Below, in pieces: positions 10,997-53,675 of a stretch of 64,000 nt of DNA (its first letter is position 1; every line of letters begins with the position of its first letter). The translations under genes and the position numbers were made by a program. The notes under the pieces were generated by a model that saw nothing but the letters and a program-made list of their open reading frames with translations, was not told the DNA's origin and made no database searches. Origin of the DNA: Nepenthes gracilis (lineage: Eukaryota; Streptophyta; Magnoliopsida; Caryophyllales; Nepenthaceae); contig BSYO01000030.1 of assembly GCA_033239525.1 (NCBI GenBank), forward strand, positions 13,661,030-13,725,029, read 5' to 3'.

Positions 10997-13900
10997 CTAC
11001 ATCATCTCACCTTTGTTGCTATTTCTTCCCGGAGACAAATGTCCTAATTGCTCAGTCAAAACTTCCAAATTCTGGGACTGATTGCTTCCATCCATACACA
11101 AAGACTCGTATGTTTGTGTTGGCTGAGAATTATCCAACTCTATTCCAGAAAGTATTGACTCTATCTCCACCGCCGAGATAAAAGGTTTTTCCTCGTGCAG
11201 CTCAGCATTTTCAGAGTCATCACCGCTAGGGCTGCTTAAGAGAAACTGTTCCAGCATACCAAGATCTAATTCTGGAAGAATAAAGGACCCACAATTATCA
11301 GAAGAAAGAGGATTTTCTTCCATTGGGAGCGGTGGGAAATCAATGTTCATGGAAAGATCTTTGACCCCATCAAATAATAGATCATGAACTCCATTTTTCT
11401 CTGGATCAGGAAATGATGCAGGTTTTAAACCTTCTTCAGAAGGCAGCTGGTACCTTATTATCACACCATCAGCAGAAGCAGTTTTTCCATCCTCTGTACC
11501 CTGCTGCAGGGTAATCTTCCCCGCTTCAGCCATGCGCCAGTTTCCCTCCTGAGGCTGATAAAGCTGAACTAGAAGCCCGGGACTCTGCATAACCATGACT
11601 AAGAAGGAAAGCATTTGTTGCTGATTTTTTTCCATTCCGTGAAGGCGTTCTCGCAAAACAAGCAGCTTATTCTGTGAGGTTGCCTGGCGCTCGCGGAGTT
11701 TAACTAACTCTTGCATGAGAACATTCTTGTCAGTCTTGAGAGTCTCCACTTCTTTCTGCAAGTTTGTGTAATCAACTTCTTCCGATGCTTCAAGAGGCGG
11801 TTCCTTCTCCTGGGAGTACTTCTGCTGAGCTAAACCATGAGGCTGTCTTCTTCTTATGATGTTACTTAATAGATGCTTTTGGTCTTTGATGAATCCCTGG
11901 TTAGCAAATTCCCAGCGATCTGTGTCTACTTTTCTGAAACCCTGAAAATAAAATTACAAGATCTTGATGACTTAGCTATATTGGATAATCTCTTTCTTTT
12001 CTCAACTGGTCATTTTGATAGGATCCGGGATAGTTGCAGGAGTTCACAGGTAATAAACGAGCATAAAATTACATAGCATTTAAAAACTCTAAGAGAAAAT
12101 GGAAATGCATTCCAGATACCTCAGATCTTGTTCTGAATCAAAACAGCATCACCATAATGATGGTAAACAACAATACCAATAAAGCATTATTTGAACAATC
12201 CCACATACTATGCGATCCCCAAACTTCCTTTTTTGGAATAAGTTGTGATTCCCAAATTTCAATTGAGTGATCTAAATAAGAAGCTAATTCTTAATATAAC
12301 GTTGAGTTACCAAAAAGCAAAGGACATTTTGTCAAAGAAGGCATCATGTATAATGGGGCAAATAAATGATTATGCCATCAAGATTGTTTGGACACATGAT
12401 TCTGATTTACCTTCCAATAATAACAAAACAAAATGATGGAACAGAAACAAAACTCCTCAAGCTTAACAAGAACAAGAAATGTTCATTGGGTACAACCAAT
12501 GATGGTGAAGTCGTTATGCACAGGAACATAAAAGTGGTTGAATGAATTTTCTGGAATATTAGGAGATCAAGCAAATGCCTGAAGGAATTTAAATGTACAA
12601 ACTTCAGCGAGAAAAGAATAGCATGTGAGTGCCATTCATACTATATGCAAGATAATGGTTTCTGCTCAGTGTTAAAGGCCCTTCAGCCAGTATGAAACCG
12701 AGAAGAGCTACACTGAGACCTCAGCTAGTCCAAATTGCAAACCCAAACTTCATTTCTCAATTGCAAATATCAGAGCCAAAAGTCTGGGTCCATTTCCAGA
12801 CCAGCAAAATAAAACTGGCTCAGTTTAAATAGGTTCCAACCATTTAGTCTGAGCAGATCCATTTGGCCTAGGACCTTAGACCAGCTATCGAGGTACCAAC
12901 CAAGGACAGATACTAAGATGTTTAAATCTAGTAGCAATGTTTCAGGATTCATAAACGAATACCTATCAGAGGCTGTAGATGAGTTTCCTCAGGAAAATTT
13001 CTACTGGCTCTCATATATAAGATATGGTATTTTGTTGATTCCTGAAGAACATTAGAACCAAATGCAGTGAAACTACATCAATGCCTCTCCTATTGGTCTG
13101 GTTTTGAGAGCACCACTTTCATTACAGTCCAGTCTCACCTTCTGAAAATCACTTTACCCTTGATCCAGTTTATTGAAATTAAACAATTTCCAGTAATGAG
13201 CATTACAGCTGCATCAAAATTCAACTGAAACTAGCTTGACATGGATTGAATCAAAATCAAAATGGACAAATAAGAGAACACTAAGGTCAATCAGACCAGC
13301 AGGTGGTCAGTCTTCACACCCTCCTCCAATTCAAACGAGGCCTGCATGATATACGTAGAGGTAAATACCGGTTGATATGTATCAGTATAATGGCTTGATA
13401 GCAATATATATTCCTACCATGATAATCTCAGGATTTGTTTGTCAATAATTGATAATATATTGTGAGATATCAATTGATATTTAAAAAAATCGGCTGATGG
13501 ACCCAATATTTGGCCAACATATCGGTCAATATAACCCTATCAGCTTACGATTTTTAGAAATTTATTTTCTTTCCATATATCCGATACCAATACATATTAT
13601 CTTATATATCTGATACTAATTCGCCCGAGACTAACATTGATATTTTCATCCATAGGCATGCATAAACTCTTCACGTACTTGGGCTAACACTACAAAATCT
13701 GCATCACATTGAGTAACACATGTTCGGCAGACAATCACTGCAATAATTCCCCACCTGCAAGTTGTGTTCGAGCTTATATTCCATTAAGGTGAGGCATCTT
13801 TTACGTATTGATTATCATTATAGCGTTGGCACCTAAGAGCTGTTGTTCCTGAATGTCAGACATAAATTGGAGAAATGATCAATCTGGGCAACTCCCGTAC

Positions 13901-26533: not shown

Positions 26534-28392
26534 CTATCCCAATTATCAAGCCCTCTGCCGAACATCTAAACCCAGCCAGCTGCAGGTGATAGGATCAGCA
26601 GGATTACAAGAAGAATGATCAAGCCACCAAGAAAGAAATCTCTGCACTGTGTTTGTCGAGAAAGGCGAGAATCCAAAAGAAATCATCATAAGATCTGTTG
26701 AATCGCGAGAAAAAGATTCAGAAGCATGGAATTGGAAGCAAATTAATAAACTCAGCATAAATGATTTTAAATAATCTGGAATTTTTGCCTTCCATTTCGA
26801 TTGATTTTCTTTGTTATGCGAGCAAATCAAAAGGGTCTGGTGATGAAGATAAAATTTTATCTGCTAGATATGTTTCTATAAATTTATTGTATCTAGGAGA
26901 TTAAGAAACCAATATAACTTTTAGTAATTTCCAGAATATTTATAAAAAATCACAATTTCATTTCATTATTTTTATTTTTCGGTCAACTTAAATTAAAAAA
27001 TTATATTTAATTTTTCATTATTTTCATTATTGAGTCATCATTCTAGAATGTCATATTTATTTCTTAGTCAATTTTAGAGTTGAGTATTAAGGCGTATTTG
27101 GATATTGATTTTATTCTAATCTTATAAATGGGCCAAGAATTCAACTCAAGTCATTAATTTGATACCTTGTACACTACCAAACAAAGAACGCACGGTTAAG
27201 GGGCTAAGGAATGCTTTCAAGGGGACCTTTCCGACACTCAACTTAATATACTCCAAATTTACCGACGAATAGTAAGAAGGGTAGCGAACTTAGGTGATCA
27301 GCTAGAATGGGGGTCGATTAATATGAGTGTTCCTGGGTGGGGAACCCTGCTCTTAGGTAGAGACGATGGCGCCACTTAACTATCGGAAGGGTGTTTTGTG
27401 AATTGAAGGAAAACCGCAAGGTGAGAAAATCTTACCCCCCTTTCAGCAGATGGGGGTTTTCTAGTTTGCCTTTCCCTAGGTGTTCTCGCTTTCTTTAATA
27501 GGCTAATATACATAGCTAGGGGACTTTCCACTAGTGGGTAATGCCTGTCTAGGTTGAACGCCTGGCTGGCTTTAATTGAAAGAGTGATTTGGCGGCGGAT
27601 GTTGGGCTGCATCTGATGGCAAGCGTGGTTTCTCAAAGCTGGCACCACTCTGGACTCATAGTTTTTCCTGGTTGGTGCCACACCTGGGGGTAGTTTTTGT
27701 AGATCAATGCCAAACTAGTTGCCTAGCCTTGGTCATTTTCCTGGTCTGGTGTCCACCTTCACTGGATCTGTGCTACTCATCGCACTAGGCTGTTTGTTGC
27801 AGGTCAGGTGTTGGCCTTATCCAAGGTAGGCACTGCGCTGGAGGGTAAGGTGATGTGTCTAGACGTTGTTAGTCATACTACATAAAACACATCAATTTAT
27901 AACCATAACGTTGAGATACGTTTTAGGCATGTGACTGTATAGTTAATTCTCTCAAGAATTATCCTAATTTGTAGCTTGGGCCAAAATGTTTGAGTTGGGT
28001 CGACTTAGTGGGTTTGTCAGGCTTCAGTACACTATTTTGTATCCAGCTACCAAATTTAAGCTTTCCCTTAAGTTTTTAGGATTCAAACATGGGTCATTTT
28101 ATCCAATTTTGACGTGTGCCTATACAAAAACCATAGTTTTATGCTTACGTAATTTTGATGAATGATAGTATGCGCATGCTGTTGTCCAATTATCTATCTC
28201 TTTCTCCTTGCTTCATCTTCCTCTCCCCTCTTTTGTCTCCTCGCTCCCTTGATATCTCCCATGTCGTCACTTTTTTTTGTTCCCCATCTTCCCTATTCCC
28301 TCTTCCTCCCTCTCTGTTTGCACATCATCTAGTGAGCTCAACGTCCTCATGTAATTCGCTAAATATGCTTCCTAATCAAATATGCTGAAAGT
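26534..28392. other. Intergenic DNA with an unidentified GC-richer block at 27180-27880
   Basis: 26534-27130 is AT-rich with no supported gene. 27180-27880 is less AT-rich and has the feel of LTR sequence (ttccgacactcaacttaata, agtgttcctgggtggggaac), but I found no partner copy in the window. 28150-28390 is pyrimidine-rich; its open frames reflect TCT/CTC runs rather than coding. Confidence 0.45.
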
Positions 28393-28800
28393 TGTTACGA
28401 GCCTTACTATTTTCTATTTTTCTTGTTTTTATTTTCAGACTTTTTGTTTCCCACTTCCCTTTCTGTTTTCCATTCCAACTACTTTCGATTTACTTTTCTA
28501 CTTTCTGTTTAGATTACATGTGCCGTTGCTACACTAGGCCACGGGTGTTTGTCTATTACTATCTATGTAGCCCATTACTGTTGCGGTAAAGGAGGAGATA
28601 ATTTGCCCTATTTCTCGGGTCTTCTTTTCCTTCCCTGCTTTCCTCTCTCTGTCCTGTCCTTTTGCAACTCTGCCTCCTTGTCTCTCTCTCTTTCTCAATT
28701 TTTTCCCTTTTCTTCTGTTGAACTCCCCCTCCCATGTTGTTTTCTATGTTTTCGTCTTCTTCCTACACTACTAGTGCCGTCACCGACTGTATATGTATCA
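28393..28800 (+). repeat. 5' LTR of the gene-capturing element
   Basis: It starts tgttacgagccttac and ends atgtatca, directly before ttggtgctctcattgaga, a usual plant Ty3/gypsy primer-site sequence. The region is very pyrimidine-rich. The partner is 32056-32464. Confidence 0.85.
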
Positions 28801-28832
28801 TTGGTGCTCTCATTGAGATAAAAATAAAGAAA

Positions 28833-30040
28833 ATGCCAACTGAAGACCAAGCGCTTGAAGCTTCCATTGCAAGGATGTCGAAGGAGATGAAATAAGTCAT
28901 GACAACCATTCGGCGAAATATAGAAAGAATCGCGGCACTTACTTCTACATCCAAGCATATCCAGCACTGCATTGTTGATGTCCTTCCATCACTCAACAGA
29001 ATCAAGCGAAACCCTAGCTGGTCAGAGAATCCTTCATCTCCTGTGGCTTCTCCCTTTGTTACTTTCCGTCCTCCAACCCAAATTGCTCTCCATCCTCATT
29101 TACCCCAACCTCAAATTCCTTCCTTCGCTGCAACCGTACAACCTAATGTGGACTGAATCACCACCACTGCTTCCACCAATGCAAAAATGCAACAATCCCT
29201 CCCCGAAAACCTTCAATCCCTATACTGAATCGAATGACAAACCGTGCAATCCGTAAATTCCCCAGTTCTTCCACCTCCTTTGCCATTCACGGCCCCTTCC
29301 TCTAATATTTCACCCCAATCAGTGCAGACCTTACTGGTTATGCCTCAATCACCACCCGAACCTCAAATCGCTTTCTCTTACTTGAGTCACAAAACAACGT
29401 TGTACAAGCTCGGCCAAAGCACCTCTGTTGCGGCATACATGGATGAGTTTGAGACACTTTCTATTCTAACACCAAGTTTGACAATTACTTCTCTTGAATT
29501 GTTTCATCTCAAGGCTTTGGGATGAAATACGGCGAGAACATTACTATTGGCCCATGGGTCATTGCCGGAAGCCATTGGCATGGCCTAATTAGTGGGGAAG
29601 AAAATTGAGGCTAGTTGATCTATTATCCAACGTCCACCACTCACCAAGCCATCACCTCACCCTACAACAATTCAGCCAAAAATTCCTCTCAAGCATGCCC
29701 TTCCACCCAAATTACCCTTACAAAAATTATCATCTACTGTAATGGCCTACAAGACAGTTTTTACATAAAATTTTATGGCATTCTTATGCATGATGGTTGA
29801 GAGAGAAGGTTCAGCCTTGGCTGTATCCCCAATTCCAAAGGCCAATTCCTTACCTCCAATATTAAAAAATATTTTCACTATTTTTCTCAATGCATTAACA
29901 GGCTAGTTTGTTCCTTCAACCTTGAGGCTACAAGGGCTTCTTCCGGGTCAATTGGTGATTGTCTTGAGGGATAGTAGCTCAATTCATAATTTTCAGCAGA
30001 CTTGATTTGCCAAACAATTGGGCCTCTCCAAGTTATTGGG
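28833..30040 (+). pseudogene. gag-protease pseudogene of the gene-capturing element
   Basis: The ATG at 28833 opens MPTEDQALEASIARMSKEMK, broken by a TAA. Later phases include LYKLGQSTSVAAYMDEFETL and ELFHLKALG (gag core), then KLPLQKLSSTVMAYK, which sits where the linker before the zinc knuckle is expected. The protease region reads STLRLQGLLPGQLVIVLRDS then SSIHNF, matching the Ty3/gypsy V-D-G/S-G-S-T-H-N-F active site with substitutions. It continues to AKQLGLSKLLG, and the gypsy homology stops at about 30040. Confidence 0.75.
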
Positions 30041-30199
30041 GATTGATTTTGGGATTGTTTACTGGTCAGGATGTGGGAATAGGCCAGTTGATGCCCAGCC
30101 CTGCTTGTCTAAAAGGTCCTATCAAATTCTCCGAGTTGTGTTCAAACTTATGATAGCACAGTCGACTGACTTAGCTATTGCAATCGAGGAGCTTCTAGG

Positions 30200-31470
30200 T
30201 GCTGAAGCTACCCTCAAATTGGCTGATGCTTGGAGCATTTACTTGTTGAATTGCCTCATGCCATTTGAAGATTCACTAAATTGGGTTTGTGATTACCCAG
30301 AAGGGGACATCCATCTCTCAACTGATGAATGGATTAATAGGAACTATGATTATTTTGAGTTCCTTACTCCAGATATGAGGAACACACCACTACAGCTTAA
30401 AGGTCCTTGTTACCTTATAATATTCCCCAATGTAAATGTTTTCTGGAGTTGCCAATTCATAGCTCATACATCATACATGTCATTGAGACACTGGCAGCGG
30501 ATGCGTGGGGTTAACATCAATGAGGGTCATGTAATCAATAAATCAATCCAAAGGTTCGTCAACTCTCGGTCTACTGTCTTAAAGAGATACATGGCTGGCA
30601 TTAGGAAGTCATAGGTAGTACTCATTGTCTGTGGCGGAATCTTGTCACTGTTTTTGTTAGTGATTTGGTTGCTTATGATTCGACATTTTATCATCGGGAT
30701 GCCCTGGATAACTGTCATACTTTTTAAAATTCTAACAATATCGGTGACAATATTTTTCTACTCGAACGTGGAATGAATTGGGAATGATACTGTATCTCCT
30801 ATCATTGGTAAGCATGATCCATACATTCATGTATCTGGAAAGGAATTAAATCCCCTTTGTGCTACTACTATCTTAATGATTGTAGTTATAGTAATATCCA
30901 TCCTTGCATCTATTGCAATTGTGAGGCGCATCGTCATGGCAACATCAGTTCTTAGGGCTGCTGCAAAGGTTATAGGAGAAGTTCAAACTCTTATGCTTGT
31001 TCCAATCATACCATACACCAGTCATACAATTTTTTACATGTTTTGGTTCTCCGCTACTATCTAATTATTCAGTTACTGGATAAGCTATGAAAACTGTTGT
31101 GTTTACAGTAGTCGTTATACTGCTCATATCGAGGTCACCATTTTCTTCCACATCTTTGGGTGGTTACTGGGCGACACATTTCTTCATCACATGTCCTTCT
31201 ACTATTATAGCAGGCTCGGTTGCCTCTTATTGTTTGGCTTCTGGTGGAACACTGTCAAAGATTCCATCTCTTCCAATTTTTGTCTCAACGAAGCAACTTG
31301 TGAGATACAGCTTGGGCTTCGTTGCTCTCGGTTTTCTTGTTCGGTCCTTCGTTAAGTCCATCTGCTTTATATTTGAGTCAATTCGTTGCACACTTGAAGT
31401 TTCCTATACAGTCCCTGATGGCTGGATAGGGAAGGCAGCTTATCATTCTTCTCACTTTTCTCTAAAATGT
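30200..31470 (+). pseudogene. Captured choline transporter-like (CTL1/SLC44-type) gene fragment
   Basis: The translation matches the plant CTL1 family (SLC44, multi-pass membrane transporters; Arabidopsis CTL1 acts in vesicle trafficking and sieve-plate formation). Landmarks in order: LNWVCDYPEGDIHLSTDEWI, RNYDYFEFLTPDMRN, FPNVNVFWSCQFIA, TVLKRYMAGI, IGKHDPYIHVSGKEL, SIAIVRRIVMATSVL, AAKVIGEVQTL, GYWATHFFITCPSTIIAGSV. It covers the middle of the protein; the N-terminal part and the last ~200 residues are missing. It runs about 420 codons without any intron, suggesting capture from spliced RNA. Two in-frame stops replace conserved Trp codons (TAG at 30612, TGA at about 30774); another stop, a deletion of roughly 20 codons near 31090 and a frameshift near 31160 follow. 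It is not functional. 30050-30200 stays open in the same frame but I cannot assign it. Confidence 0.85.
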
Positions 31471-31502
31471 AATTAGAGATTCCTTGAACCAGCCCATATT
31501 TA

Positions 31503-31902
31503 GACAACAGTGAGTTGGGCCCTGATGATCTGCATTCTCCGCATGCTGCTGCTTAGTTTGAGTACTTTGAATCCAAGGCTTTTGAACAGCAAGAAGCTAC
31601 CACTGATGGATCTCGGAAGCCTGATGCATCAATAGCCAACAACAGCTATCTAAGTGTTTCAGACTTACTCAATTATATAAACCTAAGTTCTGCTGATCAC
31701 GAGAGAAATTCAGCAGCTGCAAGTGAAGAAAAAGAAATAGATGAATATGTACAAGCCACTGATGAAGCAAGTTTGCTGCTCTCGGTCCTTAGTCTCATAC
31801 TTCGAAAAAGCACCGGCTTTGCTAGTTTGCTGAGAACCCCTCAAGATTTGCAATTCATTAATTGTTCCATACTGAGAAATTTGATCGATTCTGCTCTAGT
31901 TT
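31503..31902 (+). pseudogene. Second host-like coding segment, unidentified
   Basis: One frame is open, apart from one TAG at about 31554, for about 130 codons: [20 protein letters not shown], then [20 protein letters not shown], then [20 protein letters not shown] and [19 protein letters not shown]. The composition is that of a helical, soluble plant protein and unlike gag or pol. I do not recognise the family. It lies between the transporter fragment and the gypsy C-terminal tail, so it may be another captured host piece. Confidence 0.5.
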
Positions 31903-31929
31903 GAACCAATTTCCGAAGGAGATGACGGA

Positions 31930-32055
31930 TGGCAACTAGATCAACGGCCTAGATCCACTTGTTCCTATGGTCATCATTCGAAGCAGTGGCAACACTTTTC
32001 AAAGATTATCCCTCATTCAATTTTGAGGATAATGTTCTTTTGATAGAGAGAGTAA
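31930..32055 (+). pseudogene. C-terminal tail of gypsy polyprotein plus polypurine tract
   Basis: The frame reads FEAVATLFKDYPSFNFEDNV, matching the known end of Ty3/gypsy polyproteins (E-A-T-W-E ... F-P-x-F-x-L-E-D-K-V). It is followed by gatagagagagtaa just before the 3' LTR. This shows that the captured DNA replaced the middle of a normal element. Confidence 0.7.
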
Positions 32056-32464
32056 TGTTACAGGCCTTACTATTTTCTATTTTTTTTTTGTTTTTATTTT
32101 TAGGTTTTCTATTTCCCATTTTCCTTTTTATTTTCCATTCAAACTGCTTTCTGTTTACTTTTCTACTTTCTATTTAGGTTACACGTACTTTTACTACACT
32201 GGGCTACGGGCGTGTGCCTATTTCTATATATGTAGCCCATTACTATTGTGGTAAAGGAGGAGATAATTTGCCCTCTTTCTTGCATTTTCTTTTCCTTCCC
32301 TACTTACCTCTCTTTGTCCTGTCCTTCAGCAACTCTGCCCCCCTGTCTGACTCTCTCTCGATTTTTTCTCTTTGCATATGCTAAGCTCTCCCTCCTCTAT
32401 TGTCTTCTCTGTTTTCGTCTTCTTCCTATACTTACCGGTGCCGTCGCCAACTAAGCACATATCA
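32056..32464 (+). repeat. 3' LTR of the gene-capturing element
   Basis: It starts tgttacaggccttac and ends catatca. The right flank aaagc pairs with the left flank aaagt at 28388-28392. Confidence 0.85.
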
Positions 32465-33963
32465 AAAGCCTTTCGGGTGGAATGAGAATAGTATATGTGG
32501 TTACTCGGACTACATAACCTCAATTCGTGAGATTTGCCTGTTCTTTGTACATAAACCCTTGTGAGGGTTTCGTGCAATCTCAATTGTTTTATGAATCACA
32601 ACATTATATTTTTTAGACCACAATAATATATATAACTCACATGATTCAATAATAATACTTTTTAATTTTACAATACGCATATCTAATAAGTATAATATTT
32701 AAAACAATTCATAAAACTCAAATATAGTCTTATAGACTATAACTACTAACACTCGACTCAAAATAATGAAAATAATATCATAATAATATTTAGGTCCCTT
32801 CAGCCATCTAGTTTTACTATCCCTTATATAGTAACCTGTCCTATTCCAAAAAAATTAGAGATAACAACAAATGAATCCAATATCTAATAAGTAATTTTAT
32901 AATTAAAAAATGTAATAAAATTTAGGTATATAGCAATAATAGAGATCAGATCAAAGAGATTTAGATAGAATCAATAATATTAAAATTAATATGTCCAATT
33001 TCGGTATAATATTCGCCTTTCTCTCAAATTTAACCACATGAGGAAAATTTGATTCAAACGAATAATTATTCAAGATACTAGACAAATAATTGATCATAGA
33101 ATAACAACTATATTAAAAATTTATTTACCGATTAGCACATACGAATCCGTGTTCTTCTTTTTCTTCTCAGTTTCGAGCTCTTCTTTCTTGAGTGGGTTTT
33201 GTTTTCAGAAGTTTGTGCATCACACTATATTTCTGGCCTTCAAAATTTATAGAAAAGTAGCTTAATCTGCCATTGACACGTTCGGAACCTTTTAATTGGT
33301 CGAATTACATGTGTGATTGTCTAATTTTGGCTGTGATGGCTGCTCCCCTGTTTTGCGACGTTCATGGCTGCCTTCACCAATTTACCCAATTTCCACGAAA
33401 TTTTCTACTCTAAGTTGGTTATTTGGTAAACCTAAGATGTAATATTTCCCACGATTAGGTCAATTGCTCAATTAATTCCAAATTAGGCTCCAATTCGGAA
33501 GATTTATACTCTAGGATTTGTTCTTCCCCGAAATTCAATTTAACTTAATTAATTCTAAATATGGGATAATTAGGCCTTAATTTAGACTTATAATTATTCC
33601 ACAATCATACCCAATTATTATATATTAAAAGCTCTAATTGATTTGATCAATTGATATTATATTTTAACCCTAATAATTCAGTCATTTTTAAAATTTCGGA
33701 TACTATTTTAGAACACCAAATAATCCCCAATATATACCAACTAGTTACCCAAATTCACACCCAGATGTATGTTTATCGCGATATATAATGTAATTTTCTC
33801 AAAAAAAATCCGGGACATTATAATACATGCATACTACCTTGCTACAAATTGCCACCAAAGGCAATACCAACAATGATCGACATGTTTACTATGATGGATG
33901 AGCAATGCCTCCGAAACTAACGTGTTTTCTGGAATATCAACCATTTTGAGCTATTTAGAATAG
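32465..33963. other. AT-rich intergenic DNA
   Basis: No frame above background and no repeat family recognised. Stretches such as 33400-33740 look like ordinary plant intergenic DNA. Confidence 0.6.
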
Positions 33964-34795
33964 TGTTGGCCGGAGATGGGGGTGGCCTACCAATCACAGG
34001 CACAAAGAGATTGAAGAAAAAGGAATGGAAGAATAATGACAACCGATATTTACGTAGAAAACCCTTATGAATCAAGGGAAAAACTCACGGAACGTTGGGT
34101 CCGTAAAATTGCACTATGTATGAGATAGAGATTACAAAACAGTAAGGCGGAAATTCTCACACACACAGTTGGGCTTTCTTCCTCTCCTCTGTTTTCTTTC
34201 TTACTCTCACACACACTCACACTCTGCTCTCTTTTCTTTGCTTTACAACAACTTCTCCAGACCACATACACCAGTCTACTCACACACACACATATATATA
34301 TAAATATACAAAGATTTGGCAGCAGCAGGACCACCACATCATCCTTTATGGTTGGTGTACGGTTCCCAAAAAGCATGTATAAGCTTAGCAGCAAGTGACG
34401 CATGCCTGCAGCAGTAGCAGCAACAACAGATCTGCATTCTTTGAGTTTCCAAGGTTACCTGACATGCGCAGGCCAACCTCGATCCCTTTCGTGCACACAA
34501 AGAGCTGTTCCGTGTTTGCCTTTAATGAGACGGTCCAAAGTCCTTCCAAATAGACTTCTGGCCAACATCCTGTTGATCGTCATCCCATCTCAACGGCCAA
34601 CATCACGTTGACCGCCTTCACATTGTTCGAGTCTTCACTAAAATGGTCAACTTAATCCTTTCAGACGGTCAATTATATTGACCGTCCGTTGACCAATTAT
34701 TGACCGTCCGTTGACCAATCGTTGACCGTCCGTTGACCAATCATTGACTATCAACGATATTAATCGGAACTTCTTCACGTGAGAGATTTCCAACA
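33964..34795 (-). mobile_element. Solo LTR of a Tork-type Copia element, with perfect target duplication
   Basis: Read on the minus strand it starts TGTTGGAAATCTCTCACGTG and ends CTCCGGCCAACA, an 832-bp LTR with TGTTGG...CCAACA ends. Both flanks are aatag (33959-33963 and 34796-34800), a perfect 5-bp duplication. It is related to the LTR at 36884-37601: compare gtgaagaagttc near the start and ccttgatt..aagggttttctacg near the end. It holds a W-box array and a TATA-like tatatttatata. No internal region is present, as expected after recombination between two LTRs. Confidence 0.9.
34678..34750. promoter_or_regulatory. 22-bp tandem array of W-box (TTGACC) motifs
   Basis: Three exact-period units start at 34678, 34700 and 34722 (ttgaccgtccgttgaccaat plus two variable bases), followed by ttgact at 34744. 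Each unit has two TTGACC cores. With nearby single copies (for example ggtcaac at 34646, gttgacc at about 34606) about ten TTGAC cores fall within 150 bp. TTGAC[C/T] is the WRKY transcription-factor site. The array lies upstream of the LTR's own TATA box on the minus strand. Confidence 0.7.
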
Positions 34796-35815: not shown

Positions 35816-38800
35816 CTAGGGAAAAAAAGACCCTTTACCAGCAAACCCAATGTTTGCCAATGATCCATGATCAAGCAATTGAGATGACTTCGTAGTACAT
35901 GATGACAGTACATTGGAAACGTCAGGAGCAAGCCTGAGTAGTTGTGTTGTTGCAGCAGAAGCCATGGTTGTACTCTGATCTTGTTGACTGGTGCCACCAC
36001 CAGTATTGATTGAGCAAGGTGACATCGATTGAGATGCAGAACCATGAGGTGAGCAAGCACTAAGGTCATAATTCTGCCTAACAGCTACTGAGGAATTATT
36101 TGATCGGGCAGCCATGCTATAATCAATAAATGAGCTTTGGCTAAAGCTGCTGTCATGATTAACAAAACCTACTCCCCCATCTCCCTGAAAATTGCGTGAT
36201 GGTTGAGAGCAGGCCAAGAGGCAGGATGGTTGAACAATACTTGATTGACTAGTCTCTGGTAGTAAGGGCTGTTGTTGGAGCTGCTGCTGCCTTGATACAT
36301 CAACAAACAAGTCGGTATTCTGAGTGCCAACTCCTTCAAGACTCCCACTGGATACCGCAGTACCAAGACTGTTTGTTGGCCATACTCCAAATGAAAGTGC
36401 ATCCCCAGAATACATAGAAGATTGAGAGAAAGGTTTGGAAGTATAAAATTGACATTTGACTAAAGGCTCTACAAATGGTGCTCCTTGCTCAATAGGAAAA
36501 CATGTGAATCTCTGCAAGGATGATGGAACAAGAGCTGGCTGATCCATCAGGGACGAAGATAAGTTCCCAGTTGATTGTTTGAAAAGTTCAGCATGAAGTG
36601 CTGCCAAAGCTTGTGAAGGAATTTGACCTGATGTAGGACTTTGGACATCAAATGTTCCAAGAGAAGCAAATTTCATATTCTGTTCTAGAGGACCACAGAA
36701 TAAATGAGGAACCCCTACTTGTTGCTGAGCTACACAGCTCAATCGTTTCAGATATAGTCTGAATTTCTGCACATCAAAAGCACATTACAAAAAGTTACAT
36801 CTAACTAGGAGATTGTTTCGATTGGAGATTATACATCAAAATACAAAAGAAAAGGAAAAGAAAAAATCTAACCTGGTGATTGTTGTTGGGGATCACTCCC
36901 GTGAAGAAGTTCTAGTAAACTGAGAACTAGACAGGTCTGGCGGGCAAGGCTCAGACGGTCAACGGAAAGTTGACCGGATTGGTGAGCAAGGCTTCAGACG
37001 GTCAATGGGGAGTTGACCGGATTGGCGGTTTATATGGCCGGTTTGATGTTAACCGTCTTGGAGGTTAAGTTAACCGGTTCTTTGGAGAATACTGGAGAAC
37101 AACTACTCAGAAGGTCAACAGAAGTGTTGACCGGGTCGAAAGAACATGACGACGGCCTACACCGCCGCACGTTTTGGAAATTCTCATTCGATGCCAACTC
37201 GCCATCTCTTGGAGATATGTGATCTCGGTGATTCTTCTCAAGACGGGTTTTCAGCGGGAATATTCATATTGTAGGAAAGGATTAATTCTATCCTTTTTTT
37301 TTTGTGTGGGGTGTGTGAGAGAAAAACCTAGTTTCTGTGCGTGAAATAGTTTTTGATTGATGTATGTGAGAAGTAGAGAAAAACGGTGAAGGAGTGCTCT
37401 TCGATTTCTCTTTGTTCTCTACTGTTGTTTCCAAAATCTCATATAGTGAAATACGTTTTCAGTGGACGGATTGTCCCGTGGTTTTTTCCTTGATTGAGAA
37501 AGGTTTTCCACGTAAAATCTTGTGTTCATTGTTCATTCTTTATTTTCTCTTCTTTGTTGCTTCATTGAACAGGGAAATAATTCCGCCCCTCTTTCCCAAC
37601 AAGTGGTATCAGAGCCAGGTTCTATACTTTGTTTCAATGGCATCTTCGCTGTCGAAAAAATCAGCCGCTCAACATCGGGAAATTGCTTTAACGGGCGGGG
37701 CAACTTCATCCTCCGCAAGAGAGGGTGAAGAATATTCGACGAGGAAGGGACAAAGAAGGCAATCAAGAAGAAGGATGAGAAACCCGAAAATCATCGACGA
37801 TGAATGGCAAGATAAGAGAGATTTTGCAAACTGCACCATCAAACTGTGTCTGGCAGACAACACTCTCCAAGAAGTCCTTGGCTTAACTGATCCGGCAGAG
37901 GTCTGGGAGAAGTTGGAAAGTCGTTACAAGTCCAAATCTCTGACAACCAGACTACACGTGAAGAAGCAGTTTTATGGCTTACGGCTATCTGAAGGAGGGA
38001 GTTTCGAGAAACACTTGGATGAGTTTAATCGGATATTGACGCAGATGTCTGCGCTTGATGAAGAGATAAAGGAGGAGGACAAGGCGCTGGTCCTGTTGGC
38101 TTCACTGCCGGCCTCCTATGACCATATTGTTACAACTCTGCTGTTTGGCAAGGACACTTTGAGGTTGGATGAGGTCATTGCCTCGCTGCTCATGAATGAG
38201 TCCAGAAGGTCGCAAAGAACCTCATCATTTTCTCATTCTGAGGTCCCGTGACGAGAATCCAGGGAAGAAGCAAAGGTCGCCACGGGAGAGAAAAGTCGCA
38301 GCAAGTCACGACCCAGATACCAAAATTTGGAGTGCCATCATTGTGGCAAAAAGGGCCACATTAAGAAGCATTGCTTCAAATGGAAGCGAGAAAATGCAGA
38401 GAAGGAGAAAAGTGACAAAGGACACGGCGAGGATACGTCCTCTGTCTCAATAGTCACAAGTGGTGATCTCCTGTTGACGTGTCAAGGAGAGGTGGCAAAC
38501 TTGATGATCCGGGAATTTGGACGGGTGATTGATTCGGTGCTACTCTATATGTCACGTCTCGGAAGGAATTATATACATCCTATACTTCAGAGATTTTGGA
38601 ATAATTAGGATGGGCAACAAAGGAATTTCCCCATGTCAGAAGGAGGAGATATCATTTTGGTCACAAATAATGGCACGGTCATTGTTGAAGGATGTGCATC
38701 ACGCTCTGACATTCGTCAATGTCATCTCTCAAAGGGTCTCATTGGATGACGAGGGTTACTGCAACACCTTCCGAAGGTGAATGGAAGTTGACTGAGAGGG

Positions 38801-41800
38801 TCTTTTGTTGCGGCGAGAGGAAAAAAGTGCTCCTGGCCTCAGATGTGATGGAGGTCCGTGCCATGGCCAGGAGATGTAAACGCGAAATCAGAAGAAGACA
38901 GGAGGATTTGTGGCACGGGGAGGTTGGGCCACATGAGCGAAAAGGGTTTGTCCTACTTGACTAGGAAGGGCCTAATCAAATGAACGAAAGAGGACGGATA
39001 AAAACGCAGTCCTCATTGCTTGGCCGCCGGTGCAAAGGAGAGTCTCATTTCATGGAGACTCGTCCGCCCAAAGGCGGAGCTCTTAGAGCTTGTTCACACA
39101 GACGTGTGTGGTCCGCTCAAAGAAAAGTCAATCGGTGGTGCTCAATATTTCGCTTCCCTTTATCGACGACTGCTCAAGAAAGCTCAGGTTTACCACTAAA
39201 GACCAAGGATCGTGTCCTTAGTATTTTTGAAAGGTTTCATGCTCTTGTGGAGCGTCGACAGGAAGAAGTCAAGGCCGTCCGTAGTGATAACGGCGGCGAA
39301 TACTTGGGGCCTTTTGATGCCTACTGCCGGTTGCATGGTATTAGGCATCAGAAAACGCCACCAAAGACTCCATAGTTGAATGGAGTGGCAGAACGGATGA
39401 ATCGTACGCTCTTAGAGAGAGTACGTTGTACTCTCTGAAGCAAAACTTAAGGCATCATTTTGGGCAGAAGCACTCCGGACGGTGACCTACATCATCAACA
39501 GGTCGCCCAACAAGCCTCTGATGGGCGAAGTGGCAGAGAAGATATGGACGAGTAAGGAGCCGTCCTATGATCATTTGCGAGTGTTCGGATGTAAAGCATT
39601 CGTACATGTTCCAAGAGATGAAAGGACGAAACTGGAGCCAAAACGATGCAACGCGCTTTTCTCAAGCTATGGAGATGACGAACTAGGTTACGATTTTATG
39701 ACCTCGCACTAGGAAATCGTCCGGCCAAGAGATGTCACATTTCTTGAAAATGAGACGATCAAGACACCGCAGAAGGCAAATTGTAATGATAAAATGACGG
39801 ACAAAGTGAGTATCAAGATGTCCGTCTTGTATCGTAAATCGAAAGTTTGCACGGCCAACAGACAATTGGACGGACCAAGGTTATGAGACAGTTGAAAATA
39901 CTCAAGAGGACATGGTGCCTGATTTACGACTCGATCAAGTCATGCCTCACCTTACCAAGAAGTTGCTCTTAGACGATCCTCCCGAAACAGACGACCGTCC
40001 ATTCGTCTGTCTTCTAGTGAGTATGTGCTACTGACTGATGCCGATGAACCCGAAGATTTTGAAGATGAAGGATGAGATGAGTTCTCTTCACGAAAACCAT
40101 ACTTTTGATCTCGTTACACTTCCCAAGGGGAAGAAGGCGCTTAAGAACAAATGGGTCTTCCGAGTAAAAACGGACGAGAACACCAAGGAGCCAAGGTACA
40201 AGGCACGATTGGTGGTAAAAGGTTTCGGACAACGGAAAGGCATTGATTTTGATGAGATATTTGCTCTGGTAGTAAAGATGTCTTCCATACGGGTCGTATT
40301 GGGTCTAGCTGCCACCCAAGACCTTGAGGTGGAGCAGATGGATGTCCGAACCGCATTCCTCCATGGAGAACTTGAGGAGGAGATTTACATGGAACAGTTC
40401 AAGGTTTTTGAGGCTAAAAGAACGGAATGAATTTGTCTGTCGCCAAGAAAAGTCTATATGGCTTAAAGCAAGCTCCTCTATGTTATAAAGAAGTTCGAGT
40501 CCATTATGTCCGGCTAAGGATACCCAGGCGGACCACCGTGACCACCGTGTATTTGTGCAGAGCTTTCATTGATGATGATTTTGTCATCCTTCTCTTATAT
40601 GTGGATGACATGTTAATAGTTGGGCCGAAATATCGACCGGATAAAGAAGTCAAGGAGCAAACGACTCATTTTTTTCAATGAAGGATCTTGGATCGGCGAA
40701 ACAAATTCTCGGGAGTTAAAATCAGACGCGATCGGAAGGCAAAAGATTGTGGTTGTCTCAAGAAAACTACCTCGAGAAAGTGCTTCAAATGATTCAACAT
40801 GGACAAGTCGAAGCCTCGTGAATACACCCTCGCGAATCATTACAAATTGAGCACTCACAACGTCCGTCTTCGGATGACGAAAAGATACACGAAAGACGCT
40901 CCCTACTCTTCTCTGTCGGGAAGTCTAATGTATGCCCCGTATGCACTGCACTGACATAGCCCATGCCGTTGGGATCATAGTCGCTTTCTATCAAATCGCA
41001 ACGGAGCATTGGTCCGCATTAAATGGATCATGCGATACATTCGAGGAACCACCAAGAGGTGCTTATGTCTTGAAAATGACAAACCGCATTGGTGGGATAT
41101 TCGAGATGCGGACATGGCCGAGACATCGACTCACACAAATCTACATCGGTTATTTGGTAACATTTGCGGGCGGAGCGCTTTCTTGGCAATCCAAGCTACA
41201 AAAGTGTGTAACTCTATCCACAATCAAGCCGAATATATTGCAATTACAAAGGCGTGCAAGGAGATGCTGTGGATGAAGAAATTTGTTCAAGAGTTGGGTC
41301 TTCAACAGGAGAAGTATACTGTATTCTGTGATAGTCAGAGTGCAATACATCTCTGTAAAAATTCTTCATTTCACTCAAGATCCATGCACATTGATGTGCG
41401 GTATCACTGGATAGGGGACGTGCTAGAAGCTGGTCTGCTATCACTGGAGAAGATCGATCATCAAGACAACGGGCGTATATGATGACTAAAACTTTGCTAA
41501 GAGGGAAGCATGAAGTATGCTGCAAGAAAGCCGGGCTCATGGATCCAACTTCCTCCCGGTCGTGAGGGGAAGTTTGTTGGGATCACTCCCGTGAAGAAGT
41601 TCTAGTAAATCGAGAACTAGACAGTTTGGCGGCGAAGCTCGACGGTCAAACTAAAGTCGACTGGATTGGTGAGAAGCTTGGGCGGTCAACGGGAGTTGAC
41701 CGATTGGGGTTTATATGGCCGGTTTGATGTTAACCGTCTTGGAGGTTAAGCTAACTGGGTTCTTTGGAGAATACCGAGAACAACTACGGGAGGTCAATGA

Positions 41801-43948
41801 AGTGTTGGCCGTCATAAAGAACATAGACGACCTACACCGGCCGCACGTTTTGAAATTGCATTCGATGCCAACTCACAGAATCTCTCGAGATATGTGATCT
41901 CGAGCAGCTTCTGCCCAAGACGGTTTTTCCGGGCAGGATATTCATATTGTAGGAAAGGATTAATTCTATCCTTTTTTTTTTTTTGTGTGGGGTGTGTGAG
42001 AGAAAAACCTAGTTTCTGTGCGTGAAATAGTTTTTGATTGATGTATGTGAGAAGTAGAGAAAAACGGTGAAGGAGTGCTCTTCGATTTCTCTTTGTTCTC
42101 TACTGTTGTCTCCAAAATCTCATATAGTGAAATACGTTTCAGTGGACGGATTGTCCCGTGGTTTTTCCCTTGATTGAGAAGGGTTTTCCACGTAAAATCT
42201 TGTGTTCATTGTTCATTCTTTATTTTCTCTTCTTTGTTGCTTCATTGAACAGGGAAAGAATTCCGCCCCTCTTTCCCAACAATTGTTTGAATTGAAACTA
42301 GTCAATATTACAAACAAATAAAAGAATGTTACTTCTGTTTGTATGGATTAACTATAAGTGAAGAAAACAGTCTTCCCAAGAACTAGGCATGCTTATGTCT
42401 TCCTCCATCCCTCCCTCTCTCTCTCTCTCTTCCCAATTAGGATGAGCGAAGAGAAGTCAGAGTTTCATTATCCTACCCAACCATTTCCAGATTCATAGCC
42501 TGAATGACATTAACATTAAGCCCCCCCACCCCCACACACACACACAAAAAAAAAGGTAAAAAACAATTAAAAAAAATAAAGTCTAGTTGAAGGCTAGAAT
42601 CAGCAAAAGAGCATGCAACAAACCGGCTCCAACAATGAGCTTTCAATATTTAAAGGAAGTTTATAATCAAGATGGATTCAGACCTGCAAATGGCTTGCAA
42701 CATTTTCTCTCGTTAATCCTGGGACATTCATCACTTCAAGGATTCGTTTTGGTACAGCTTCTGATATAGGAGACAAAGAAGATATGAAAGCAGTTACAAC
42801 AAGAAGCTATTCACCTTCACAAGAGCAACAAAAGCAATTCTTAATCCCTAGCCACCTTAGAACTACGACATTCAATTGAAGTAATCAATATAGCAGTTGG
42901 ATAAAGATTGGAGTTCATACTATCAAGGCCCAGTTGATTTACTGCACTAACAAACTGCTGATGGAGCTCCACAGACCACACTAAACGTGGTTTCTTAGAT
43001 GTAGATGAGTCATCATTCTCCAACTCACCATTATCGTCTTCCATAGGACCTATCTTCTTTTTGTGAGCTTTTAATGTTCCTTCAGCTCCATCATTAACAG
43101 AAGAAGCATAATCACAATCATCATATCCCTGTCTATGCCGATCGGTATCTTTCAAGCTATCAGAATGCTCACGTTCCTTACATTCATTCCATCTTTTTCT
43201 AACAACATGCTGCCATATATTCTTCAGTTCTTCTAACCGTATAGGCTTAATTAGATAATCACAGGCCCCCTGTTTAATTCCTCTCATCACAGTGCTGGTC
43301 CTTCCATCCCCAGATATCACTAGATAATGAACCATTATTTTAGTACGCAAATGAAACTCACAAAACGAATTTCATTTACTAACCAGAAGTTGATAAACGA
43401 AAAATCATTGATGCACAAAGAAGATTAGCCACAATAATATGATACATTGGTAATATTAGTAATATTTCACCATTTGTGATAGGTTATATTATACAATGGC
43501 ATGATGAATCCATTTCACATTTGTACCATTTGTTCTCAGTACATCTAAAATTACTGGGTTGATGACAGAGTTGAAGCTAAGGATGAAAGATGCAACTCAC
43601 TAATTACAGGAAGGTCCATTTCCAGCCCAACATGTTCAAGGAGCTTATAGCCATCCATGTCAGGCATATGAACATCACTCAGTACCACATCGAAACAGCC
43701 TCTCCTTTCGCGAAGAAGATTCAAGGCAACAGTAGCCTTGGAGCAAAGCGTAACTGCGGGCAATTTAGGAGGAAATAGTGAAGTGGTGTAGAAGAGCTTA
43801 GATTAATTTTAAAATTGAAGAATAACTCGGAAAACTCACCAGAATACAGGCATCGACGGAGCATTTGCTCCAAAATTTTTAAGCAGGTGGTATCATCGTC
43901 AACAACAAGAACTCTCAATCCGACCGGAAACTGATCGGACAGCGCCAT
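35816..43948 (-). CDS. Type-B two-component response regulator (ARR1/ARR2-like)
   Basis: Five exons: 43840-43948, 43601-43753, 42921-43319, 42684-42760, 35816-36766, all with GT/AG borders in matching phase, giving 562 residues. Start [19 protein letters not shown]. Receiver domain at about 7-125: acidic pair DD, phospho-acceptor Asp in [12 protein letters not shown], conserved Lys in [13 protein letters not shown] nuclear-signal-like KKPR is followed by the GARP/Myb-like B-motif at about 206-262 ([20 protein letters not shown], then [18 protein letters not shown]). The rest is Gln/Ser-rich (RQQQLQQQP), as in activation domains. It would receive phosphate from histidine phosphotransfer proteins and activate cytokinin-response genes in the nucleus. 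ARR1/ARR2-like proteins are usually longer (about 660 residues); this one stops at GKGSFFP, so the C-terminus looks truncated. Intron 4 carries a Copia element. Confidence 0.9.
36884..37601 (+). repeat. 5' LTR of the intronic Copia element
   Basis: 718 bp, TGTTGGGG to CCCAACA, followed by agtggtatcagagcc. Its upstream half contains W-box inverted pairs (ggtcaacggaaagttgacc at about 36957, ggtcaatggggagttgacc at about 37000, ggtcaacagaagtgttgacc at about 37115) and a TATA-like tttatatgg at about 37028. Confidence 0.93.
37604..37619 (+). other. Primer-binding site for initiator tRNA-Met
   Basis: tggtatcagagccagg matches the classic plant Copia primer site complementary to the 3' end of initiator tRNA-Met, two bases after the LTR end. 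Confidence 0.9.
37637..38450 (+). pseudogene. gag of the intronic Copia element, frameshifted
   Basis: ATG at 37637 gives [20 protein letters not shown]. The frame runs to 38251 with the UBN2-type gag core ([56 protein letters not shown]). The zinc knuckle [14 protein letters not shown] (complete CX2CX4HX4C) follows in another phase at about 38331. An apparent internal deletion after about residue 20 joins [20 protein letters not shown] to the [20 protein letters not shown] region. It is nearly intact but not one frame. Confidence 0.85.
38500..38960 (+). pseudogene. Copia protease region remnant (intronic element)
   Basis: Pieces in different frames match the Tnt1-type region: [11 protein letters not shown] at the place of the D-S/T-G-A active site, then a [17 protein letters not shown] stretch, [20 protein letters not shown] and YCNTF. 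Active-site residues are disturbed and the frame shifts several times. Confidence 0.6.
39070..39720 (+). pseudogene. Copia integrase remnant (intronic element)
   Basis: The core motifs are present in shifted frames: [15 protein letters not shown] (first Asp, about 39086), [18 protein letters not shown] (second Asp, about 39275) and [10 protein letters not shown] (Glu, about 39380) after a TAG. The downstream part reads [12 protein letters not shown] and [20 protein letters not shown] (39490-39620), typical of the Copia integrase C-terminal region. Confidence 0.8.
40030..40690 (+). pseudogene. Copia reverse transcriptase remnant (intronic element)
   Basis: The frame 40038-40430 holds [53 protein letters not shown] and [20 protein letters not shown]. 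After shifts, the catalytic site [12 protein letters not shown] is intact at about 40590-40625. The domain order is normal; frameshifts at about 40430 and 40500 break it. Confidence 0.87.
40900..41482 (+). pseudogene. Copia RNase H remnant (intronic element)
   Basis: From 41009 the frame reads [20 protein letters not shown], then [40 protein letters not shown] and [13 protein letters not shown], the standard C-terminal RNase H of Tork elements. The usual first catalytic region (Y-S-D-A-D) reads RDADMA. It ends shortly before the polypurine tract. Confidence 0.85.
41575..42281 (+). repeat. 3' LTR of the intronic Copia element
   Basis: 707 bp, TGTTGGG to CCCAACA. From about 41945 to the end it is nearly identical to the 5' LTR, but from 41600 to 41900 it differs by many one- and two-base deletions. 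Confidence 0.93.
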
Positions 43949-46927: not shown

Positions 46928-48965
46928 TGTGAGGTTTCGATTCTCATAACATAGTAATTAGGAGGTAATTAATGTAATATAATCAAAATTAGGCATAATA
47001 CATGTGAAAAAATTAAGTTTCGGAAGCATAGGAAGAGTAAGTGGGTAACGCCCGCCAAGAGCCTCAGGCGGTGCCGCGGGCACCCAAACTAGAGTAGTAG
47101 CACCTACCGGGCACTCAAGCACCCGGGGCAGGCGTTGAAATCAGTGAGGGGCACACTTGCTGTGCGCCGGTTCACAATATAAGAACCCCATGAGGGTTCT
47201 CCTGCGTCATTTTTTGCCACTTACAAGACAGGAGAGAGAGAGAGAATGTAAAGAAGAGAGAGAAAGAAGAGATCGAGGTTTCTGAGTTCGATTCCGAGGT
47301 AAAGATAGTTAGAGAAATGATAGATCAGCTCGAGATAAGTACACTTATACTCTTTTTTCTCATTTTCTTGCGCTTTCATTCCTTTTTTTGGATATCCTCG
47401 TTTCGATACCCGATTAAATTTATATTTTACAAAGCCTATGACTTGAGTACGTATATATCTCAATTTCATATCCGATTTGTAAGATTTGTGTGGTCTTTCA
47501 CTTTACGAAACCCTAACCCACGCCCCCCTTTGGTTTTACCAAATTTTTTTTTAAAATTTATGCATGAGTTGGACTTATAAACTTGAAACCTTAACTTTAT
47601 GGACGTGGGTATTTTGATGATTTAGTAATTGTTCACATACAAATTGTATATATTATTTTACGTGTTTTGAAAATATTATTGGACATGAATCGTGATATTT
47701 ACTCACATGAATGATAAATATGTTATCTTGTATATACTCCGAAAATTACGTTGTACGCATTTGTGAAGGAATTTATTATTCAAAAGTTCTAAAGTTATGT
47801 TTGGCCCATGGCAGTAAGACTTTTTGATTTTTACCATACTTTATTTTGATTTTATATGTAATTTAAGTCACGTGAAACTTAAATGCATAAGAATTGTGCA
47901 AATTAAGAAAATTATATGAAACAAATTCTATGATATATTATGTTTGATGAATCGTTCTCCCGGAGTAATAACAAAGTATTGAAAATGAGTATGAAATTTT
48001 TCTAAGAATAAGTAATAAGAAAATTGGACCCAAGATTTTTATTTTAGATAGTAGTATTCTTTGACATGCCGTAGGATATTTCTATAAAAGTACGAGGATT
48101 GCCTTTAGGCCACGAGGGACATGGTGACATATGTTTTATGAGCCCGTATATCGAGTAAAAGGTATACCACTCACCACGGGGTATTGAATTGTATGAATTT
48201 ATACTTAAGATGTGTAGAAGCAAATACATTCATTTTTTCGTTTGATCGTACCGCTAGCTAGTAAGGTCTACTGACCCTGATCCGCAAAAATAATAAAATT
48301 TTTGTATATTTTATAACCTAAAAGGATCAAAAATAAAATAGAAAAGATAAATGTGTTTCGATAAGATATTTATTCATACTTCATGTTTATGCATTCATAA
48401 ACTGTTGTTATTTCCTTCTCTTGTTTTACGTTACATACATTGCATATTATCCTTGATTATATTATATCTTATTGAGCATTTGGCTCACCCTTACAGTTTT
48501 TTTTTTCTTTCAGATGAGCACGCGCTTATACTTAATGAGGTGGAGTGAGGGTTAGAAGTTGGCTAAGTATGAAGGTTCAGATGATGATCTTATGGACTTA
48601 GATTTTATGATTTTGTTAATCGTTGAATACTTTTGTATATTATTTGATGGTTTTGTATATTGATGTATGTGTATGATGGTGAGGTATATATAGTTTAATT
48701 TTCACTCTATTTGATGAATATATATACTTCCGTAGGTTTGTATGGTTTTTTTTGGGTACCTAGTGACATCTTATCTAAGTCGACGTTGTAATTGAAATTA
48801 TTACGTCGGTGTCACATGTTTATTTGTAACTTTTTGGATCCCATGTTGGAATGTTGTAGATATTTGTTTATGTTGTACAGAAATTTGTACAGATTTGTAT
48901 TAATTTAACCTTCGCTTTTCAATCGGAACTCAATTGGATTCCGGTTAGGAATGCGGTCCGTTACA
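46928..48965 (+). repeat. 5' LTR of the Tekay element
   Basis: 2,038 bp. It has a GC-rich block at 47047-47165, then a TATA-like aatataagaacccc at about 47176, then a GA-rich leader (gagagagagagaatg at about 47232). The same features recur in the 3' LTR. Confidence 0.92.
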
Positions 48966-48966
48966 A

Positions 48967-48980
48967 TTGGTACTAGAGAC
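48967..48980 (+). other. Primer-binding site, degenerate
   Basis: ttggtactagagacga follows the LTR end and resembles the initiator tRNA-Met site tggtatcagagc with several changes. Confidence 0.6.
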
Positions 48981-49221
48981 GAAATGTCTTAGACTTGATC
49001 TGAATCTTATGCGGAAGCCTAGGATAGTATAGGCTAGATGGAATAAGTAGCGATAGTCATAGAATGGTTAAATTAGATTTGGTAGTTTTAGTTGTCCAAA
49101 TTAACCTATTTAGACTGTTAGTTGTATTTAAATCGTGTAGAATTATAATTTCTTAGCTAGTGTCCGGCCCATAATCTAACTCATATCATTCTTGTTTTAG
49201 AATAGACATCCGTAGCCGATA

Positions 49222-50200
49222 ATGCCGCCTAGAACAAGGACCACACGGGGAGGTGGTTAGCCACATGATAGAGAAGCCGAGTATTTGAACCTGTTGGGTC
49301 GTATGGCAGATATCATTGAGAATATGGGGCAGAGGAATCTTGCTCCAGTGCCTTTCCTGCTAATCTTGGGCCATCTTCATATGACCGATTCATCTAAGAG
49401 AGAGTTCCTGAGTTTCTGGGAGAGACAGATCTGATTAAAGCAGACACGTAGTTACAGTGATTGAAGAAGGTGTTCGTTGTAATTCGTTGTTCGGAGGAGG
49501 ATCAAGTATTGTTTGCCTTGTACCGATTGGAGAGTAAAACCCATCATTGGTGAGAGATGAAAAAGAGAGCCTTGGGTGTGCCGAAACATGAGATCACCTG
49601 GCCTATATTTGAGAATACATTTATGGAGAAGTACTTCCCGTCCGCCTTTCATGAACAGAAGGAGGAGGACTTTATCCGCTTGAAACAAGGTACCTGGTCA
49701 GTTGCCCAATACGATGCGAAGTTTACGGAGTTATTACGATACGCTTCGTACATGGTAGAAGATGAGGAGAGGAAGGCAAGAAAGTTTCTTTAAGGTTTAC
49801 AAGATAATATCTGCAAACAATTAGCGACCGGTAACATATGTGGATGTGTTGGATCATGCTTTGATCCACGAGAAAGAGTTTGCAAATGAGAAATTCTTCA
49901 AGAAGAGGACACCGAGTAAGAGTGGTGTTGGTGCCAACTCTAGTGCGACCTCTAGGAGACCACAGAAGAGGATAAGACAATCAGATTCAGAGAAGAAGAG
50001 CAACGAGACTGCACCGTCCTCATAAGTTTTAGTCAGTTCATGCCAACATTGTGGAAAGATGCATGGAGGTAAACCTTGTTACAAGTTGATGGGCATGTGT
50101 TTTAATTGTGGCCAAGTGGAGTACAAGATCAAGGAGTGGCCTCATCAGATGAAGGCCCACACCCCTAAGCCCGTTATGCAAGGAAAGGCTTTTGCGGTGT
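49222..50200 (+). pseudogene. gag of the Tekay element, broken
   Basis: ATG at 49222 gives MPPRTRTTRGGG, then a TAG, then HDREAEYLNLLGRMADIIEN. The core continues at 49557 onward with RALGVPKHEITWPIFENTFM, EKYFPSAFHEQKEEDFIRLK and YDAKFTELLRYASYMVEDEE. The zinc knuckle reads CFNCGQVEYKIKEW: the conserved His has become Tyr and the last Cys has become Trp, so it cannot bind zinc normally. Confidence 0.85.
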
Positions 50201-50299
50201 TCGCTAACGGAGCAAAAGCTTCCGATGATGTGATAGAAGGTATTCTTTCTATCTGTAGCATCTCTAGTATGATACTTTTTGGTTCCTAATCCACCCAGT

Positions 50300-51350: not shown

Positions 51351-51368
51351 ACCCTTCGGGAGCACAAA

Positions 51369-52090: not shown

Positions 52091-52299
52091 GATGAAGATA
52101 TTAGATTGCTTAAAATTTTGTAATATCCAACGTTATGTTAAAGGCAATAGGATGATATTGTCTTTCTTATAGGTGTAGCCCTAGATCATTTAGAGGATTA
52201 AGAAAGGGCAAGCTAGTGATCCATTTTTAATGGATATCGTTGGAGACCTTAGTTGAGATTCTTGGATGGATTTCAGTGTCCATGAGGATGGAGTTCTGA

Positions 52300-53620: not shown

Positions 53621-53675
53621 TAATTGTTAGGATTCATTAATTTTGAGGACGAAACTTTCTAAGTGGAAAGAGAGT

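Follow-up and report, generated by a model that had tools for sequence, protein, structure and literature searches.

The window analysed here is a 64-kb stretch of the Nepenthes gracilis genome (assembly GCA_033239525.1, contig BSYO01000030.1, positions 13,661,030 to 13,725,029), within which two direct repeats (28393-28800 and 32056-32464) delimit a unit of 4.07 kb. These repeats are the long terminal repeats (LTRs) of what is probably one old, decayed, non-autonomous LTR retrotransposon insertion. Fragments of two host genes lie between them, both in the element's direction. The first, at 30216-31470, is a CTL1/SLC44 choline-transporter fragment that is 72% identical to residues 107-544 of Nepenthes gracilis CTL1 (P0001). 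The second, at 31459-31986, is REC1/TSS/CLU-like and joined directly to the CTL1 fragment; it had been overlooked in an earlier sequence-only reading of this DNA, which had proposed that an LTR element transduced a single host gene. The capture of CTL1 by an LTR element is well supported, and the number of genes involved is corrected to two (CTL1 and REC1/TSS).

The LTR-bounded unit

The features of the unit are listed below in window coordinates.

28388..28392, no strand: left flank, AAAGT (target duplication), read from the sequence; 4 of 5 bases match AAAGC
28393..28800, plus: 5' LTR, TGTTAC...TATCA; 82.5% identical to the 3' LTR over 406 columns
28801..30059, plus: interior, earlier labelled gag and protease by eye only; long single frame (frame of 28833) with stops
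30060..30215, plus: stretch ahead of the CTL1 homology, no assignment; CTL1 residues 40-135 align only from 30216
30216..31079, plus: CTL1 piece 1, P0001 107-394; tblastn, 72% over 107-441, end from frameshift-aware alignment
31080..31160, plus: CTL1 piece 2, P0001 415-441, after a 20-residue (60-nt) gap; tblastn and frameshift-aware alignment
31165..31470, plus: CTL1 piece 3, P0001 443-544, frameshifted; tblastn 441-544, 72%, and PF04515 at 7e-10 on 31084-31473
31459..31506, plus: REC piece 1, P0121 1045-1060; 10/16 identities, overlaps the CTL1 end on Leu-Lys-Cys (31462-31470)
31509..31712, plus: REC piece 2, P0121 1093-1160; 45/68 identities, within the stretch matched at E 7e-21
31713..31772, plus: REC piece 3, P0121 1195-1214, after a 34-residue (102-nt) gap; 17/20 identities
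31773..31902, plus: stretch without assignment, possibly decayed REC and a short insertion; scattered weak alignment, short repeats to CTL1 and to itself
31903..31986, plus: REC piece 4, P0121 1245-1272; 18/28 identities, tblastn E 2.9e-6
31987..32055, plus: 3' interior; a purine-rich run precedes the 3' LTR by reading; gypsy-tail label unsupported
32056..32464, plus: 3' LTR; repeat search and alignment with the 5' LTR
32465..32469, no strand: right flank of the insertion, AAAGC, read from the sequence

A repeat search found the LTR pair at the outer ends where the sequence-only reading had placed it, and the 5-bp flanks AAAGT and AAAGC were confirmed as described. The two LTRs have the same orientation, and alignment over 406 columns gave 82.5% identity with 53 transitions and 18 transversions (Kimura two-parameter distance 0.205). 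As in an LTR retrotransposon, the unit has a direct LTR pair, TG..CA ends in both repeats, and a target duplication, here agreeing in 4 of 5 bases. Elsewhere in the window, LTR matches were limited to two short ones of 38 and 24 bases. By reading, a candidate primer-binding site (TGG) stands one base 3' of the 5' LTR and a candidate polypurine tract, the purine-rich GATAGAGAGAG, precedes the 3' LTR; the window held no tRNA gene with which to compare the primer site. At substitution rates of 7e-9 to 1.3e-8 changes per site per year, the insertion would be approximately 15 to 8 million years old.

The sequence-only reading had also recognised gag and protease relics on the left and the extreme C-terminus of a gypsy element on the right. 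These labels had been assigned by eye, and the searches did not bear them out. Pfam gave no gag, protease or gypsy domain up to E 10 in nine stop-free pieces (PF04515 apart) and three read-through translations. For the gag and protease labels, the protein search returned nothing at E<=0.001 among 7999 scored candidates. Compared with the remainder of the window, the element interior gave chance-level matches only (best E 1.2), and the supposed protease part gave only chance matches to PDB sequences (E 1.3 and 4.5). A Ty3/gypsy assignment, which Pfam, the protein search, the window comparison and, for the protease part, PDB all failed to provide, is therefore not claimed; a decayed relic could escape domain tools, and the gypsy label is left neither shown nor excluded.

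The host-gene fragments and their junction

The read-through translation of the unit's middle, with stops as X, matched 438 proteins at E<=0.001 among 7998 candidates scored. The best CTL1 match was Nepenthes gracilis P0001 (E 1.2e-195, 71% identity), the others among the matches listed having 53-64% identity, and PF04515 was present in all 120 CTL1-search matches listed. On the unit itself, Pfam found PF04515 on two of the nine stop-free pieces (6.9e-7 and 7e-10); the remaining seven gave no match. By tblastn, P0001 residues 107-441 aligned to 30216-31160 and residues 441-544 to 31159-31470, each at 72% identity. The alignment is colinear from 107 to 544; its interruptions are one 20-residue gap after 31079 and one frameshift, with no inserted sequence. 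An intronless CTL1/SLC44-type fragment in the element's direction is thus present as the sequence-only reading had stated, but it begins at 30216 rather than at 30040-30200. Comparison of the first CTL1 piece with PDB sequences gave a single chance match (E 0.91). In a 17-row tree, the CTL1 piece was sister to Nepenthes CTL1 (support 99/95), with branch lengths of 0.32 for the element row and 0.007 for Nepenthes CTL1.

Of 1906 candidates, 744 proteins matched the REC query, the first 135 residues of the read-through from 31503, at E<=0.001. The 120 matches listed include proteins named REDUCED CHLOROPLAST COVERAGE, TSS and clustered mitochondria protein, and the best match was Nepenthes gracilis P0121 (Nepgr_002258, E 7e-21). 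A second Nepenthes REC paralogue, P0131, scored below P0121 (296 versus 347). Frameshift-aware alignment gave four colinear pieces, with only weak scraps between the last two. Beyond Leu-Lys-Cys, the first piece had a score of 27, which 1 of 300 shuffles reached. The boundary between CTL1 and element sequence had been put at 31470-31500, where REC1/TSS sequence (31459-31986) is found instead. Within the REC block, 31772-31793 resembles the CTL1 stretch 31318-31352 minus a short deletion between two CGGT words (deletion by eye), and may be a further tiny CTL1 patch.

At the junction between the two fragments, the CTL1 and REC alignments overlap on Leu-Lys-Cys, a word common to both Nepenthes parent proteins in a residue-level comparison. 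The parent CTL1 reads FSLKC followed by IEW, the parent REC reads KALKC followed by NQRLLGPDH, and the element reads FSLKCN*RFLEPAH. Identical residue-triplet pairs between both parent proteins make up 2.2e-4 of all pairs (294 pairs). In the CTL1 of other plants, the corresponding word was LRC or FRC in 74 rows and LKC in 10 (top eight classes tallied), whereas in REC it was LKC in the top classes tallied; because of this difference, the shared LKC word appears to be partly a Nepenthes-like trait of CTL1. Overlaps of this kind are what reverse-transcriptase jumps leave. On these sequence comparisons, the shared-word junction is as expected for reverse-transcriptase template switching between mRNAs. 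In the excerpts on which all citations here are based, PMC13317346 describes such switching for packaged RNAs that are unrelated, and PMC1950507 describes it for two element RNAs.

The source of the CTL1 piece was assessed against 119 other CTL1 gene models, which were compared with P0001 for insertions and deletions of at least 6 residues within residues 60-640. Eight of the 119 had insertions of 7-14 residues placed precisely behind P0001 residue 353, and one more model had 21 extra residues after 351; these models come from Turnera, Gossypium (five models), Tetracentron, Corchorus and Craigia. One Musa CTL1 model repeats 86 residues starting at residue 229. We infer that recurrent slips of gene models at one place mark a splice junction. 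In Arabidopsis CTL1, the first intron lies no more than 281 bp from the ATG and Gly247 is in exon 4 (PMC5746207, PMC5746208, excerpts); two more introns must therefore precede codon 247, most likely after codon 107. Maize CTL1 has a fourth intron according to the excerpts. The CTL1 sequence of the element is uninterrupted both through residue 353 and through 107-247, so that the intron positions of CTL1 in other species support a spliced-RNA source, as the sequence-only reading had proposed. Exon skipping as the origin of the 60-nt CTL1 gap was not favoured, since none of the 119 gene models had an insertion or deletion of at least 6 residues there.

Formation of the chimeric interior

We consider it likely that the interior of an LTR element was rebuilt during reverse transcription from two spliced host mRNAs and was then inserted. 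Spliced CTL1 and REC1/TSS mRNAs would have been co-packaged with element RNA. Reverse transcriptase, moving from the 3' end, would have switched from element RNA to the REC mRNA and passed over parts of it. At the short shared word (the Leu-Lys-Cys codons) it would have crossed to the CTL1 mRNA, and from there it would have returned to upstream element RNA. The resulting chimeric cDNA would have retained both LTRs and been inserted by the enzymes of an autonomous relative, giving the 5-bp duplication, with decay afterwards.

The relative divergences bear on the timing of capture. In a decay simulation that used the transition bias of the LTRs, a protein identity of 72% needed about 0.16 changes per site; one LTR branch has accumulated about 0.10 changes per site since insertion, which would leave about 81% protein identity. 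The captured block is therefore not younger than the insertion, and capture probably preceded or accompanied it, with the caveat that stronger CpG loss, reverse-transcriptase errors or a different parent copy could explain the excess divergence. The ratio of observed to expected CpG was 0.48 in the block and 0.62 in the 5' LTR. The block has 3 stops against a simulated mean of 5.0 at 0.16 changes per site, giving no strong sign either way. The proposal that the hybrid moved as one unit fits both the flanking repeat and these relative divergences.

A chimeric processed pseudogene made by a long interspersed nuclear element (LINE) and inserted into a resident LTR element would likewise yield spliced-looking fragments, and the L1-like route operates in dicots too (PMC4838847, excerpts). 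A retrocopy of its own should have left a target duplication and a poly(A) stretch; however, no word of at least 7 bases is shared between 30040-30225 and 31980-32056, and no poly(A) was seen at the captured block by reading. Without a flanking repeat around the block, its separate insertion was rejected. The block also runs in the element's direction, both host fragments are internal to their coding sequences, and the block has diverged more, not less, than the LTRs. The missing flanking word and poly(A), together with the block's divergence, favour capture in the element's own cycle over a nested retrocopy, which we consider unlikely. About as doubtful, and if anything slightly more so, is a patchwork made at the DNA level, in which genomic CTL1 and REC pieces served as filler in break repair within the element. 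The several small gaps and the stretches without assignment suit such a patchwork, and a short shared word suits end joining as well, but the CTL1 piece crosses at least one splice position of other species as well as 107-247, where Arabidopsis has further introns. This continuity at intron positions also argues against a DNA source such as capture by a Helitron. As for capture by a Pack-MULE, no inverted repeat of at least 30 was found in 27000-34000, and none of four inverted pairs of 12-17 nt in 29950-32060 brackets the block. Two unrelated LTR insertions, or solo LTRs, around an ordinary pseudogene would account for the 17.5% difference between the LTRs and the one differing flank base; we regard this as very improbable, given that the two LTRs agree in orientation and in their ends, that 4 of 5 flank bases match, and that the 64 kb contain no other LTR copy beyond the 38- and 24-base matches.

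Several observations weigh against a rebuilding of the interior from two spliced mRNAs. The intron evidence was taken from genes of other species. For REC the intron test was weak: gaps ended at 1040 in two models, single models had an insertion at 1058 or at 1171, and the linker REC 1171-1246 varies in length anyway. The tree program flagged the element's CTL1 row as a long branch of unsure placement, and the tree did not place the REC row, for which 35% of the kept columns were filled and the branch was flagged at 2.31. The gag, protease and tail of the element had no support from any tool. The REC step at 31506/31509 breaks the reading frame, and neither 30060-30215 nor 31773-31902 has an assignment; judging from this step and these stretches, the block was shaped by later rearrangement as well.

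The first CTL1 piece, the main REC piece and the interior reading all lie in a single frame. No frameshift occurs at the CTL1/REC junction, and the two clean gaps inside the fragments measure 60 and 102 nt. The element could conceivably once have had a single element-CTL1-REC fusion frame, made by template switching from mRNA to mRNA in a virus-like particle and open for a time, but we think this improbable. Four of six joins are in frame, which at one third each has a chance of about 0.10, and the unsupported interior frame underlies one of these joins; frame conservation was accordingly not accepted as proof of selection. If the fusion frame did exist, a pitcher-plant element evolved a Bs1-like hybrid protein.

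The wider window and comparison with known systems

Other elements are present in the window. A copia element at 36883-42285 contains gag (PF14223, 5e-33) and reverse transcriptase (PF07727, 1e-34) domains between repeats at 36883-37605 and 41574-42285 that are 89.6% identical. Open frames on the reverse strand lie on either side of it, with sub-threshold matches of response-regulator and Myb-like type in one of them (42844-43371); the element was perhaps inserted inside a type-B ARR-like gene. Another LTR element occupies 46928-55681, where RNase H domains of a reverse transcriptase (PF17917, 1.9e-25; PF17919, 4.6e-21) at 51351-52013 lie between direct repeats of about 2 kb with 79% identity. 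The remains of a further element lie on the plus strand at 4056-6157, where RNase H (PF17919, 9.9e-18) was accompanied by an integrase match below threshold (PF00665, 9.8e-5). A long reverse-strand open frame at 10997-11953, for which Pfam gave sub-threshold coiled-coil matches only, appears to resemble the latter portion of a heat-shock factor.

Few captures of host genes by plant LTR elements have been worked out, and the present case adds a two-gene example from the decaploid carnivorous genus Nepenthes. After alignment of the parent genes, its shared-word junction would offer real breakpoints for testing the template-switching model, and the unit is a further instance of mobile elements shuffling host genes. 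No earlier report of these genes inside LTR elements was found among the open-licence papers listed, which is no proof of absence. In the excerpts of PMC12244726, Gypsy-type LTRs are given as 35.5% of the Nepenthes mirabilis genome, which makes the setting ordinary. Transduced sequences usually have the same sense as gag and pol (PMC7264820, excerpts), an orientation that agrees with the present case if the host fragments set the direction in which the interior is read.

Among host-gene captures, the excerpts of PMC13317346 name Bs1, a terminal-repeat retrotransposon in miniature (TRIM) with a P450 fragment, and Rider/sun. In maize Bs1, three host genes have contributed segments (PMC13317346), and like Bs1 the present unit is an LTR element with partial segments of several unlinked host genes, here two. 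It differs in that the genes are CTL1 and REC1/TSS, the plant group is another, the junction between the two host fragments falls on a shared word, and the element is known from the sequence of one copy. Host genes inside full-length LTR elements have also been surveyed in rice (672), sorghum (1343) and maize (424) (PMC3726574, excerpts); that survey counts annotated genes, whereas here two fragments were found by homology, one of them spliced-looking by intron positions. Jumps of reverse transcriptase between different packaged RNAs would be shared with Veju and BARE-2 (PMC13317346) and the Triticeae complex elements (PMC1950507), but the cases in those excerpts join element RNAs or an unknown sequence, and here two host mRNAs would have been joined with the element. 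The unit is thus probably a Bs1-like multi-gene transduction, the principle of which is already known, and its two-gene fusion and unusually legible junction set it apart.

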